A DNA stretch of 64,000 nt from Streptomyces sp. CMB-StM0423 (GTDB lineage Bacteria; Actinomycetota; Actinomycetes; Streptomycetales; Streptomycetaceae). Of this stretch, positions 7,878 to 34,378 are shown one piece after another. The position numbers and the translations under genes were made by a program. The notes under the pieces were generated by a model. That model saw only the letters and a program-made list of their open reading frames with translations. It had not been told where the DNA came from and searched no databases. The first letter of the stretch is position 1. Every line of letters starts with the position of its first letter. The DNA lies in assembly GCF_002847285.1 (NCBI RefSeq), contig NZ_CP025407.1, positions 5,521,001 through 5,585,000 on the forward strand, given 5' to 3'.

Positions 7878-8924
7878 TCAGTACGCGAGTCTCCGGCACA
7901 TCACCTGTGCCGCGCCCCCGCGCTGCTCCACGGGCGCCCGTCTGCCGCCCGACGGCGCCGGCGGGTCGCCCGGGGCCGGGTTCTCGTGGGTGGTGCGCGG
8001 GCTCGGGATGTGCGGCGCTTCCGGGGCCTCTCCCGGGGGGCCGCCGCCCCCGCCCGTGCGGACCTTCTCCGGCGCGCGGTCGTCCGCCGGTACGTCGCTG
8101 CCGTCCGGGTCGTCGGGCCGCGGGCCGCCCGCGGCGACCACGCTGCCGCCCGCGGGCGTGCCGCGGCCGCCGATGTGGGAGGCGAGCCGGTACACCCGGC
8201 GGCGGATGCCGTCCGCGATGCGCAGCGACGGGCGGAGCAGCAGCCAGCCGATGCCCATGACGGCGGCGCCCGCGACCGCGTCGAGGAAGTAGTGGTTGGC
8301 GGTGCCCATGACCACGATGGTGGTGACGAGCGGGTACGCGACGCCCAGCAGCCGGACCGGCGTGTGCGGGGCGTGCCGCCACAGCACCACCGCGCACCAC
8401 AGCGCCCAGCCCACGTGCAGGCTGGGCATCGCCGCGTACTGGTTGGTCAGCCCGCCGAGCCCGCGGGGCGCGCTCGCCTCACCGCCCCACCAGCCGTACG
8501 AGGAGTACTGCGCCATCGTGTCGACGAACCCGTACGCCGGGTCCAGCAGCCGGGGCGGGCAGGTCGGCATGAGGATGAAGCCGACGAGCGCGACGACGGT
8601 GGAGAGCAGCAGCCAGGTGCGGTAGCGCCGGTAGTGCACGCGGTGGCGGAGCCAGACCCACACCAGGACCACGGGCGTGACGACGTAGTGCAGGGACGCG
8701 TAGATGAAGTCGGCGGGGACGCCGAGCACCGCGTGCGCGGTGAACAGTCTGTTGAGCGGGTCCTCGAAGTTGACGTGCAGGGTCTTCTCGATGTCGAGCA
8801 GCGCGAGGCCGTTGTCGACCGCCATGGTCACGTCGCCGCGGGCGAACAGCCGGCCCGCCGAATACGCCATGTACACCACGACGACGAGCAACAGCTCCGT
8901 CCACCAACGCTGCCTCAGTCGCAT
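7878..8924 (-). CDS. PAP2-family membrane phosphatase / inositol-phosphotransferase-like protein
   Basis: 348 residues from ATG 8924 (GGAG about 10 bases upstream). About six transmembrane segments are visible, beginning with TELLLVVVVYMAYSAGRLF. The PAP2 signatures are AAMPSLHVGWA (catalytic His in PSLH) and GTANHYFLDAVAG (second His and Asp), the form found in the PAP2_3 subgroup that includes aureobasidin-resistance/inositol phosphorylceramide-type transferases. The C-terminal 100 residues are Pro/Gly-rich and probably a cytoplasmic tail. A likely role is lipid phosphate hydrolysis or transfer of a phosphoinositol group. Upstream lies a pair of 18-bp inverted-repeat elements (9023-9063). 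Confidence 0.8.
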   Translation of the reverse strand: MRLRQRWWTELLLVVVVYMAYSAGRLFARGDVTMAVDNGLALLDIEKTLHVNFEDPLNRLFTAHAVLGVPADFIYASLHYVVTPVVLVWVWLRHRVHYRRYRTWLLLSTVVALVGFILMPTCPPRLLDPAYGFVDTMAQYSSYGWWGGEASAPRGLGGLTNQYAAMPSLHVGWALWCAVVLWRHAPHTPVRLLGVAYPLVTTIVVMGTANHYFLDAVAGAAVMGIGWLLLRPSLRIADGIRRRVYRLASHIGGRGTPAGGSVVAAGGPRPDDPDGSDVPADDRAPEKVRTGGGGGPPGEAPEAPHIPSPRTTHENPAPGDPPAPSGGRRAPVEQRGGAAQVMCRRLAY

Positions 8925-31715: not shown

Positions 31716-32843
31716 TCACCCGGGGCTGCCGCAGGCCGGGCAGTCGGGGCGGCGGGGCAGCCGGACGCTCACCTCGTCGCCGGGCACCATCAGGTTGAAC
31801 CCGAAGCGGACGCCGGGTTCGAGCGGCGGGATGCCGGTCAGCAACGCCAGGGCGCCGTACGCGACGAGCGCGCCGGACAATCCGGCGGTGACCGCGTTGG
31901 CCGGGTTCCACGGCAGGTGCGCGGAGGCGCCCGGCTCGTCCGCCCCGGGGGCGAGGCCGAGGTCGGCCCGCCGGATCGCCTGGTCGTGCAGGCACTCCCA
32001 GCACCCGCCGGTGCCGGGCCGGTGGATGCCCGCCGTGACGAGCGGCCCGCTGTAGCCGCCGTCCACCCACGGCAGCCCGGCGGCCAGGCAGGCCCGGTTC
32101 GCCCAGCGCCGTATCTGCGGCGGCCCGTCGGCGCCCAGCACGAACACGTCGTACGGGGGCGAGGACACGACGAGCGCGGCGAGCTCCGCGGCGGTGGCGA
32201 CGCGGCGTACCTCGCCGGTGACGCGGATGTCGGGGTTGAGGCCGGCGAGCCTGGTCACCGCCGCCTCGGCCTTCCGCCGTCCCACGTCCGCCTCCGCGTA
32301 CAGCAACTGCCGGTTGAGGTTCGACAGTTCCACCCGGTCGTCGTCGACCACGTGCAGGTGGCCGACGCCCGAGGCGGCCAGGTGCCAGGCGGCCGCGCCG
32401 CCCGTACCCCCGACGCCCAGGACGAGTACCCGGGCCTCCTTCAGCCGCAGTTGGGCCTCCCACGCGCTGGCGCGGGCGCCGAGGTCCATCCAGCGGAGCA
32501 GCGGTACGCCCCGGCTGTAGCGCTCGGCCTCGCGCGGCGAGAACTGCGCGGGCAGCGGCGCGGCGGCGTCCTCCAGGAAGCCGGCCGCGGCCAGCCGCTC
32601 CAGCGCCGCGGTGACATCGCCGGGTCCGACCTCCTCGTGCCGGGCGCGCACCGCGGTGACGATGTCCTGCGCGCTGCGGGTGCCGTCGGCGGCTTCGACC
32701 AGCGACCAGACCCAGCCGCGCGGGTCCTCGATCTCGGCGCCGACGCCGTAGATCACGCTGCCGATACGGACGTTTCCCGCCACGGTGCGATAGCCGCGGT
32801 GCTCCGGTTTGACCCGTGGCCGTGCCCACTCTCCCACCGCCAT
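31716..32843 (-). CDS. ThiF/MccB-like adenylyltransferase with N-terminal PqqD-like domain
   Basis: 375 residues from ATG 32843 (GGAG upstream). Residues about 10-110 look like a PqqD-type winged helix, the peptide-recognition (RRE) fold: RVKPEHRGYRTVAGNVRIGS, GWVWSLVEAADGTRSAQDIV. An E1-like domain follows with the nucleotide loop VLVLGVGGTGGAAAWHL, catalytic Arg in ELSNLNRQL, Lys in GRRKAEAAVTRLAGLNPD and a zinc site made of CWEC and CPAC. E1 enzymes of this kind (MccB, PaaA) adenylate the carboxyl end of a small peptide or protein. The gene is divergent from a 23-codon peptide gene and an M14 peptidase gene. It could also be a sulphur-carrier activator, but no ThiS/MoaD-like partner is nearby. 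Confidence 0.85.
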   Translation of the reverse strand: MAVGEWARPRVKPEHRGYRTVAGNVRIGSVIYGVGAEIEDPRGWVWSLVEAADGTRSAQDIVTAVRARHEEVGPGDVTAALERLAAAGFLEDAAAPLPAQFSPREAERYSRGVPLLRWMDLGARASAWEAQLRLKEARVLVLGVGGTGGAAAWHLAASGVGHLHVVDDDRVELSNLNRQLLYAEADVGRRKAEAAVTRLAGLNPDIRVTGEVRRVATAAELAALVVSSPPYDVFVLGADGPPQIRRWANRACLAAGLPWVDGGYSGPLVTAGIHRPGTGGCWECLHDQAIRRADLGLAPGADEPGASAHLPWNPANAVTAGLSGALVAYGALALLTGIPPLEPGVRFGFNLMVPGDEVSVRLPRRPDCPACGSPG

Positions 32844-32954
32844 ACCCCACTCCAGGATGATGCGCCAGGAAACCTTGCACCGACGCGGCCCAATGTGCAC
32901 TACTGAGTGAGTCGTTTCAAGCACACAGAGTTGACCAGGTGGGAGGGAGGCGCG

Positions 32955-33026
32955 ATGCAGGAGATCAGGATCCGTCGTCTCGACAAGAAGGAGACGACCG
33001 GCGACAGCAACCCCAGCGGCGAGTGA
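32955..33026 (+). CDS. Putative 23-aa precursor peptide
   Basis: ATG 32955 has a strong ribosome binding site (GGGAGGGAGG 5 bases upstream). The peptide begins MQEIRIRRLDKKETT and ends GDSNPSGE. It is highly charged: a basic amphipathic N-terminal half that could be a leader recognised by the PqqD-like domain, and a short polar C-terminal half with Asn-Pro and a free Glu end. Its TGA overlaps the GTG start of the M14 peptidase gene (GTGA), so the two are translationally coupled. No homologue is known to me. It could instead be only an upstream coupling ORF, but the ThiF neighbour argues for a substrate. Confidence 0.65.
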   Translation: MQEIRIRRLDKKETTGDSNPSGE

Positions 33027-34378
33027 CGCCGGTCGGCCTCCCCGCGCTGGCGCGGCACCGCTACCCCACCGTGGACGACCTCACCCGGACCGCCCGCGAC
33101 CTGGCGCGGCGCCACCCGTCCCGCTGCCGGCTCCGGCAGGTCGGCGAATCCCGCGCGGGGGAGCCGCTGTGGCTGCTCTCCGTCGGCCACGGATCCCGGA
33201 ACGTCCTGGTGGTCAGTGGCGCGCACCCGAACGAGCCGGCCGGGGGCGCGGCCGTCGCCGACCTGGCCTACCAAGCCGTACGAAACGGGCGCAGCGGGCG
33301 CGTCGGGGCCGGCGCGCGCGACCGCCGGCAGGACCGCGACGCCGCCTGGCACTTCCTGCTCTGCCTGGACCCGGACGGCGCCCGCCACACCGAGCCCTGG
33401 ACCCGCCACCCCGGCACCCTGGAGCGCCAGCTCCGCCACTTCTACCGGCCCGCCGCCGACCAGCAGCCCGAGTGGCTGCCGCCGCCCGGCGGACGGGCCG
33501 CGCCGCTGCCCGAGACCAGGGCGCTGCTGACCGTGCTGGACGAGCTGCGCCCGGCGGTGCAGTTCTCCCTGCACGCCAACGACGTCGGCGGCGCCTGGGC
33601 GCAGCTCACCCACGACCTGCCGGGCGCCCGCGCGGCGCTCGCGGACCCCGCCGCCGGGCTCGCCGTGCCGCTGGCCGCGGCGCCGGTGGACACGCTGCAC
33701 ATGCCCGGCGCGGGGCCGGGCGTCTTCCTCATGGCCGCGGGCGCGGGGCTCGACGCCAACGTCGTGCACCGCGACTGGCTGACCCGTTCGACGTGGTTCC
33801 ACCCGCTGCGGCACGGCACGGTCACCGCCGTCGTCGAGACGCCCGTCTGGGCCGTCGAGGGCGTCGCCGACCTCCGGCCCACCGGGGCGCCCGGCCTGGT
33901 CGTGGGGCGGGCCGTGGGGCATCTGCGGGCGCAGGCCGACCGGTTGGCGGGGCTGCTGGACGAGGCCCGTACCGGACTCGGCGCCGCCCCCGGGCCGTTG
34001 CTGGACGCCGCGGCCTGGCTCACCGAAGCCTGCTTCACCAACGCCGCGCAGTGGTCGGCGCCGCCCTCGCCGGGCAGCCCGCCGCCCGCGGCGACCGCGG
34101 GCGGCGCCCTCGCGCTGCGGATGGCCGCCCAGCGGCTGCCGCTGCGGGCGGCGGCGATGTTCGCCCGCGCGACGGAAGGACATCCCCTCGGCCCGGCGGC
34201 GGAGACGCTGCTCACCCGCTGGCGCCGCAGCTACGCGGCCGACTTCGGGCCCCGCTGGATCCCCGTACGCGACCAGACCGCCCTGCAGACGGAGTTCATC
34301 GCCCGCCTGGCCCGCCTGGTCCTCAACCCCGCCCGCCGCACGAACGGATCCCAGGCGACCCGCCACCGCGACCGCTGA
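33023..34378 (+). CDS. M14-family zinc carboxypeptidase
   Basis: 451 residues from GTG 33023, which overlaps the stop of the 23-codon peptide gene. M14 features: first zinc pair in GAHPNEPAGG (H68, E71), substrate-binding Arg/Asn region in LCLDPDGARHTEPWTRH, third zinc His in VQFSLHANDVGG and the catalytic Glu in TAVVETPVWAVEG. About 130 extra helical residues follow the domain. There is no signal peptide, so it acts inside the cell, unlike digestive M14 enzymes. It may trim the C-terminus of the encoded peptide, remove it from a modified product or confer immunity, as peptidases do in microcin C systems; this is inference. Confidence 0.85.
   Translation: MTPVGLPALARHRYPTVDDLTRTARDLARRHPSRCRLRQVGESRAGEPLWLLSVGHGSRNVLVVSGAHPNEPAGGAAVADLAYQAVRNGRSGRVGAGARDRRQDRDAAWHFLLCLDPDGARHTEPWTRHPGTLERQLRHFYRPAADQQPEWLPPPGGRAAPLPETRALLTVLDELRPAVQFSLHANDVGGAWAQLTHDLPGARAALADPAAGLAVPLAAAPVDTLHMPGAGPGVFLMAAGAGLDANVVHRDWLTRSTWFHPLRHGTVTAVVETPVWAVEGVADLRPTGAPGLVVGRAVGHLRAQADRLAGLLDEARTGLGAAPGPLLDAAAWLTEACFTNAAQWSAPPSPGSPPPAATAGGALALRMAAQRLPLRAAAMFARATEGHPLGPAAETLLTRWRRSYAADFGPRWIPVRDQTALQTEFIARLARLVLNPARRTNGSQATRHRDR

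Follow-up and report, generated by a model that had tools for sequence, protein, structure and literature searches.

The chemistry of ThiF-like RiPP enzymes is a young field that rests on a handful of systems from Proteobacteria and Firmicutes. GrcB, IndF and EnfB activate a peptide carboxylate, which is then attacked by an internal nucleophile (PMC12250964, PMC12150305). The products described so far comprise a thiolactone (GrcB), an indolylamide (IndF), an imide (EnfB), a phosphoramidate (MccB) and the pantocin bicycle (PaaA) (PMC12250964, PMC12150305). A 2025 review of these enzymes does not mention Streptomyces or other actinobacteria. The authors of the IndF work counted 27,400 RRE-ThiF fusions, so that the enzymes of the actinobacterial family presented here are probably contained in that unannotated set. 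The enzyme class is known, and the actinobacterial family, its precursors and its M14 and PqqD-M50 partners are apparently undescribed. In the open literature searched, we found no description of the peptide motif or of a ThiF protein with M14 or M50 in Streptomyces.

The locus shares with pantocin A (PaaA/PaaP) an enzyme of the same RRE plus E1-like architecture and a short adjoining precursor. Unlike in pantocin A, we found neither an EEN core nor the 2OG oxygenase PaaB, a PaaC partner or an EamA exporter, and an M14 peptidase is present here, with an M50 protease in relatives. Microcin C (MccB/MccA) resembles the locus in its very short peptide substrate, its E1 adenylation domain and a fold match of the enzyme over the full length. 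MccA, however, has 7 aa and ends in Asn, whereas the peptide in the window has 23 aa, carries a leader motif and ends in Glu. The IndF, EnfB and GrcB systems of Firmicutes likewise combine a precursor with an RRE-ThiF enzyme, the ind cluster contains a peptidase, and carboxylate adenylation followed by ring closure on an internal nucleophile is known there. They differ in their precursor families, in their partners, which are an M16 peptidase or radical SAM enzymes, and in their low-GC hosts, while the actinobacterial family is set apart by its Ser/Cys/Lys position and its M14/M50 peptidases. Since the version in the window consists of three genes, its reaction can be tested with one peptide and two enzymes.

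Organization and genomic setting of the locus

The window, i.e., the whole stretch of 64,000 nucleotides that was analysed, belongs to a genome of 8.03 Mb. Open reading frames and Pfam matches confirmed the three genes that a preliminary description had placed here, namely thiF, a 23-codon ORF divergent from it, and an M14 peptidase gene. These three alone make up the locus in the window, with the following features:

31716-32843, minus strand: ThiF/E1-like adenylyltransferase, 375 aa (Pfam ThiF, 4e-42; PaaA-like_N, 3e-4; AF2 model)
32559-32843, minus strand: RRE/peptide-clamp-like domain of ThiF, approximately residues 1-95 (profile and structural superposition)
32941-32950, plus strand: ribosome binding site GGGAGGGAGG of the peptide gene (from the sequence; GA-rich in the closest relatives)
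32955-33026, plus strand: precursor peptide gene, MQEIRIRRLDKKETTGDSNPSGE (motif conservation, near/far control, dN/dS)
32964-32999, plus strand: leader/recognition motif IRIRRLDKKETT, residues 4-15 (77 unique precursors)
33000-33023, plus strand: putative core GDSNPSGE (tail patterns of relatives)
33006-33008, plus strand: Ser18, candidate nucleophile (Ser conserved at +3)
within the core, plus strand: Gly22-Glu23, candidate carboxypeptidase site (penultimate Gly conserved in M14-type precursors)
33023-34378, plus strand: M14 zinc carboxypeptidase with C-terminal helices (Pfam Peptidase_M14, 2e-11; AF2 model)

The open frame of thiF covers 31716-32924 on the minus strand, with the conserved start being the ATG at 32843. 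The TGA of the peptide gene overlaps with the GTG start of the M14 gene (GTGA); at two loci of the family, L063 and L101, the junction reads ATGATG instead.

Streptomyces aculeolatus and S. phytophilus are named near relatives that hold the locus. Most near relatives that lack the locus have glmS directly next to usp, and in more distant holders it sits elsewhere in the genome. The locus was inserted between glmS and usp in a lineage-specific manner. Its proximity to adpA therefore carries no weight, and the developmental control suggested in the preliminary description was rejected on these grounds and because the locus contains no TTA codons. Neither an exporter nor a leader protease is encoded at the window locus, no oxygenase gene was identified adjoining it, and no nucleoside-tailoring or MccF-like immunity gene adjoins it either. 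Of the genes that were identified at the window locus, none encodes a radical SAM enzyme, and YcaO is missing from the neighbour genes scanned and from the conserved neighbour families identified. A search of the host genome for a second ThiF of the family returned only a 35% paralog.

ThiF is related to PaaA and MccB over its full length

The best matches to the ThiF profile were PaaA (4e-43, covering PaaA residues 7-225) and MccB (1e-42). As the alignment with PaaA starts at residue 7, it includes the RRE. Taken alone, the N-terminal ~95 aa match the Pfam models of the PaaA-like N-terminal domain (3e-4) and PqqD (0.009), both below threshold. The AF2 model of ThiF, with a mean pLDDT of 84.7, superimposes on MccB with a Z score of 29.7 over 336 of 346 residues, starting from MccB residue 1 and including the peptide clamp, and on PaaA with a Z score of 25.7 over 318 residues. 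The relation to MccB that had been noticed before, including the peptide-clamp domain, is thus real over the full length, and the same applies to PaaA. The positions of an active E1 are invariant in the family, i.e., G143-G148 (GxGGxG), R178 (N..RQ), K191 and D239, and the only invariant Cys residues are those of the zinc tetrad.

The E1 fold, together with Gly-Gly or Gly-X tails that resemble processed ubiquitin-like C-termini, would also be in line with a sulfur-carrier or ubiquitin-like system, in which a ThiS/MoaD-like protein is the true E1 partner or the peptide itself acquires a thiocarboxylate at its C-terminus. A sulfur-carrier ThiF/MoeB protein is, however, expected to have a conserved catalytic Cys outside the zinc tetrad, and the family has no conserved Cys beyond the four that bind zinc. 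At the locus we saw neither a ThiS/MoaD-like ORF nor a gene for a rhodanese or sulfurtransferase, so that the alternative partner considered in the preliminary description did not turn up. As an RRE domain and a conserved precursor next to it are moreover hallmarks of RiPPs, we consider this reading very improbable. The E1/ThiF domain is fused to an N-terminal RRE, a conserved short precursor gene is adjacent, and ThiF occurs without YcaO, all of which characterize ThiF-like RiPP loci. The assignment of the locus to the RiPPs is strong.

The short ORF is a conserved precursor gene

Of the 393 genomes searched within the genus, 36 encode a close ThiF (E below 1e-60), which corresponds to about 9% of the sampled Streptomyces. 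A profile search of 395 genomes of the class gave matches in 13 at a cut-off of E below 1e-70, and 80 named loci were taken from a genome collection; some loci represent one genome present in two collections. The family was also found in Streptosporangiaceae, Nocardia, Micromonospora, Glycomyces and others.

Most thiF genes near the window type adjoin a short ORF whose product carries a motif similar to [IL]x[IV]Rx L[DE][KR]xET[TI], in summary form IxIRxLDKxETT. Many Actinobacteria have this motif next to a related thiF gene. In the collected neighbourhoods, the 456 kb within 1.5 kb of a thiF gene contain 100 ORFs with the motif, compared to a single one in the 994 kb farther off. Pairwise comparison of 15 codons in 57 copies gave a dN/dS of ~0.11. 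Judged from these sequences, the ORF is a real gene under purifying selection. Among 77 unique precursors, the Leu and the first Thr of the motif are kept in all, the Glu in 75, and an Asp or Glu at the LD position in 73. At 45 of the 47 M14 loci the motif peptide was recovered by a strict pattern; at the remaining two, the peptide of L112 has diverged, and L096, which lacks thiF, also has one. The 23-codon ORF is kept in every relative found with both enzymes, and its conservation beside them supports the earlier proposal that the peptide is the substrate of ThiF. The peptide is almost certainly a RiPP precursor modified by ThiF. A fixed C-terminal residue had been anticipated along with a conserved N-terminal half; the leader motif (residues 4-15) is indeed conserved, but at the C-terminus it is the penultimate Gly and Ser(+3) that are fixed instead.

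Precursors of the family are only about 22-50 aa long and can therefore be missed by gene callers. In two plasmid records thiF is annotated, with no feature listed over the motif peptide in a gene table that is incomplete, and a scan with NCBIfam matched no precursor family. Up to three tandem precursor genes with different tails (e.g., SDSGGNGGG, GDSSGGNGG and GPSNSQGA) accompany a single ThiF at L089 and L157, which are from one genome, and at L141. The locus L096 (genome G024, positions 8632-8700) combines an orphan M14 gene with the diverged precursor MTEIKIRALDQRETWDDSGSGL; no thiF of the family was found in this genome, and the locus is either a relic or a peptide-M14 pair that does without ThiF.

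Precursor tails conserve a nucleophile position and a penultimate Gly

To compare the tails, positions were counted from the ETT end of the motif, and 55 unique tails were set against 2000 shuffles. Ser, Cys or Lys occupies position +3 in 42 of the 55, compared to a shuffled mean of 13.7, and none of the 2000 shuffles reached this number. The Cys type is exemplified by ...KICTITGD from Glycomyces and the Lys type by ...IQNKQIDS. The M14-less set alone has one of these residues at +3 in 24 of 37 tails (9.1 when shuffled). Enrichment was also observed at position -6 from the C-terminus (28/55 versus 13.5), and a minority of tails carry Arg, Asn or Leu at +3. All 34 unique precursors of the M14 type have both Ser(+3) and a penultimate Gly, such that this group always ends in Ser-(spacer)-Gly-X with a variable last residue (A, S, T, E, G or N). 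The penultimate Gly is present in 2 of 5 M14-less members of the same set of ThiF proteins (Fisher p 0.001, relatedness ignored). In the M14-less set, Asn is the commonest residue after the penultimate Gly, and M14-less relatives have -NPSGN and -NSTGN tails that equal -NPSGE and -NSTGS in length. Overall, the tails are rich in Gly, Ser and Asn, and many finish in Gly-Gly or Gly-X. The NWYFI, WWIVI and Glu-Cys cores of the indolylamide, enterofaecin and GRC systems do not occur among them.

Most tails contain Asn, 14 of the 43 unique M14-less precursors end in it, and MccB is the best structural match of ThiF. These observations would suit a microcin C-like pathway, in which M14 trims the peptide back to Asn (GDSN/PSGE, DSGGN/GGS) and ThiF adenylates this Asn to give a stable peptide-nucleotide. 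Several tails are nevertheless free of Asn (GVSGEGG, QKCGGA, GDSASGAT), for which reason trimming back to Asn was ranked lower, and the depth of trimming would have to differ between precursors. MccB needs an Asn at the C-terminus of its substrate, but the window peptide ends in Glu, and 1 of the 34 M14-type precursors has Asn at its end; nucleoside-tailoring, exporter and MccF-like immunity genes are missing beside the window locus. The AMP-linked product proposed in the preliminary description is thus not supported, and such a pathway appears unlikely.

A pantocin-like reaction appears hardly more probable. Here, ThiF would activate the side chain of Asp10, Glu13 or Asp17 for cyclization on the backbone or on Lys or Ser, and the C-terminus would serve as a follower. 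PaaA is the closest profile match and is covered including its N-terminal domain, the PaaA-like_N Pfam model matches, and the acidic positions of the motif are highly conserved as given above. These conserved acids are, however, located inside the apparent recognition motif, the EEN core is absent from every precursor collected, and an Asp or Glu at +2, frequent as it is in the M14 group, is seldom found outside it. Activation of the C-terminus of the peptide by ThiF is the probable alternative.

The M14 protein is a zinc carboxypeptidase linked to one part of the family

Residues H68, E71, H184, E272 and R142 of the M14 protein are invariant. The AF2 model (pLDDT 86.7) matches the fold of carboxypeptidases A/B/O with a Z score of 24.6. 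With the HxxE...H ligands, the catalytic Glu and this fold, the protein has the features of a zinc carboxypeptidase, in which R142 is plausibly the arginine that binds the carboxylate of the substrate. A quick tree was built from 104 ThiF proteins. The 38 rows with M14 all belong to a single set of 43 rows with an SH-aLRT support of 96, and the presence of M14 requires 4 changes on this tree compared to 31 in shuffles. M14 is therefore restricted to part of the ThiF family.

Many relatives that share ThiF, M50 and the precursor have no M14, and paralogous M14 pairs occur without thiF. Both observations would fit a function in immunity or turnover, in which M14 breaks down the finished peptide inside the cell by hydrolysis instead of taking part in its maturation. 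Against this, the start of the M14 gene overlaps the precursor gene and the penultimate Gly is fixed only where M14 is present, and both features suggest a role in processing. An immunity or turnover function seems as unlikely to us as the microcin C-like pathway.

At the Actinacidiphila loci L103, L104 and L105, thiF is flanked by two M14 genes, without M50. Paralogous M14 genes with 42-49% identity form convergent pairs in many Streptomyces, without thiF or peptide (L002-L009, L020-L026).

Most relatives encode an M50-like membrane protease

In most relatives, thiF is followed, often with an overlap, by a gene for a membrane protein of ~400 residues with an HExxH motif. Its match to Pfam M50 is weak (2e-4 at best, below the curated cut-off), as is its match to the NCBIfam daptide protease (1e-5), and one such gene is labelled as site-2 protease family protein by NCBI. 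An N-terminal PqqD-like domain was detected at E values of 0.001 to 0.2, below the cut-off. The N-terminal domains of M50 and ThiF both match PqqD below threshold, and HHalign gave only a weak match between them, with a probability of 4.5%. The window genome does not have the gene, nor do its nearest relatives, Actinacidiphila and a few others. From locus to locus, M50 partly takes the place of M14 and vice versa. The earlier three-gene picture had the genes at this locus right and missed the PqqD-M50 protease of most relatives. The latter resembles the M50 proteases of epipeptide (EpeP), pearlin (TglG) and daptide pathways, but differs from these in its PqqD-like N-terminus and in its location next to ThiF.

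M50 enzymes of pearlin pathways are carboxypeptidases that act on scaffold peptides (PMC10885120). Along these lines, the peptide might be a reusable carrier, onto whose C-terminus, once activated by ThiF, a small molecule or amino acid is attached. M14, or M50 in relatives, would then set the product free and restore the carrier, as the M50 enzyme TglG does in pearlin pathways. The simple Gly/Ser/Asn tails and the partial interchange of M14 and M50 are compatible with this idea. Yet the conserved neighbours that were identified include neither a PEARL-type (LanB-like) enzyme nor a tailoring gene, and the nucleophile at +3 would be left unexplained, which makes a carrier function still less probable than an immunity function of M14.

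Proposed mechanism

Starting from the conserved peptide gene, the enzyme architectures and the Ser(+3) and Gly-X constraint, we infer the following ring chemistry and role of M14, including the order of steps. The leader IRIRRLDKKETT in the N-terminal half would dock on the RRE domain of ThiF, leaving the last eight residues, GDSNPSGE, as the substrate part. M14 may then remove the variable last residue behind Gly22; that Gly-X is tied to the presence of M14 suggests that X is removed before or during activation. ThiF and ATP would adenylate the exposed C-terminal carboxylate, and attack by the side chain of Ser18 with loss of AMP would close a small macrolactone. In relatives, Cys would give a thiolactone and Lys a lactam. 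The conserved Ser/Cys/Lys near the C-terminus and the lack of any other conserved tailoring enzyme argue for such small rings. In most relatives the membrane M50 protein with its PqqD-like domain may subsequently cut off the leader; the lineage of the window, without M50, would use another protease or keep the leader.

The complete scheme of leader docking, M14 trimming, C-terminal adenylation and ring closure on Ser18 in a minimal ThiF-like RiPP locus is tentative, and we put it at slightly below an even chance. Arg, Asn or Leu at +3 in a minority of tails is a misfit with a simple nucleophile rule. The equal length of -NPSGN/-NSTGN and -NPSGE/-NSTGS tails means that the last residue need not be a removable extra, and the conserved Ser and Gly could serve recognition instead. 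That the loci form a large RiPP class of actinobacteria with a single E1-like family that closes C-terminal lactones, thiolactones or lactams depending on the nucleophile (Ser, Cys or Lys) at one fixed position, after a carboxypeptidase has exposed a C-terminal Gly, is a bolder and rather doubtful extension; if true, it would represent a miniature parallel of ubiquitin-like protein activation. The product could be a signal or an antibiotic.

Further branches of the family

Three Thermoplasmata MAG contigs (L161, L166, L167) contain relatives of ThiF with 38-41% identity over the whole length; neither the motif peptide nor M50 was detected on them. A Streptomyces branch of the same ThiF family has Lys-type precursors (IEIRLLDKIETIQNKQIDS; L080-L083, L087, L088, L095, L135, L144, L149), and two Cys-rich precursors take their place at L080. 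Neighbours in this branch are M50 and AfsR/BTAD-type (BTAD/NB-ARC) regulators, in some cases with signal peptidase S26 and oligopeptide ABC genes. In Pseudonocardiaceae (L140, L142, L143, L147, L152, L154), ThiF relatives with 44-49% identity have a different short ORF directly upstream, which reads MIEFxE...TFS... in most of these loci and likely represents another precursor subclass.
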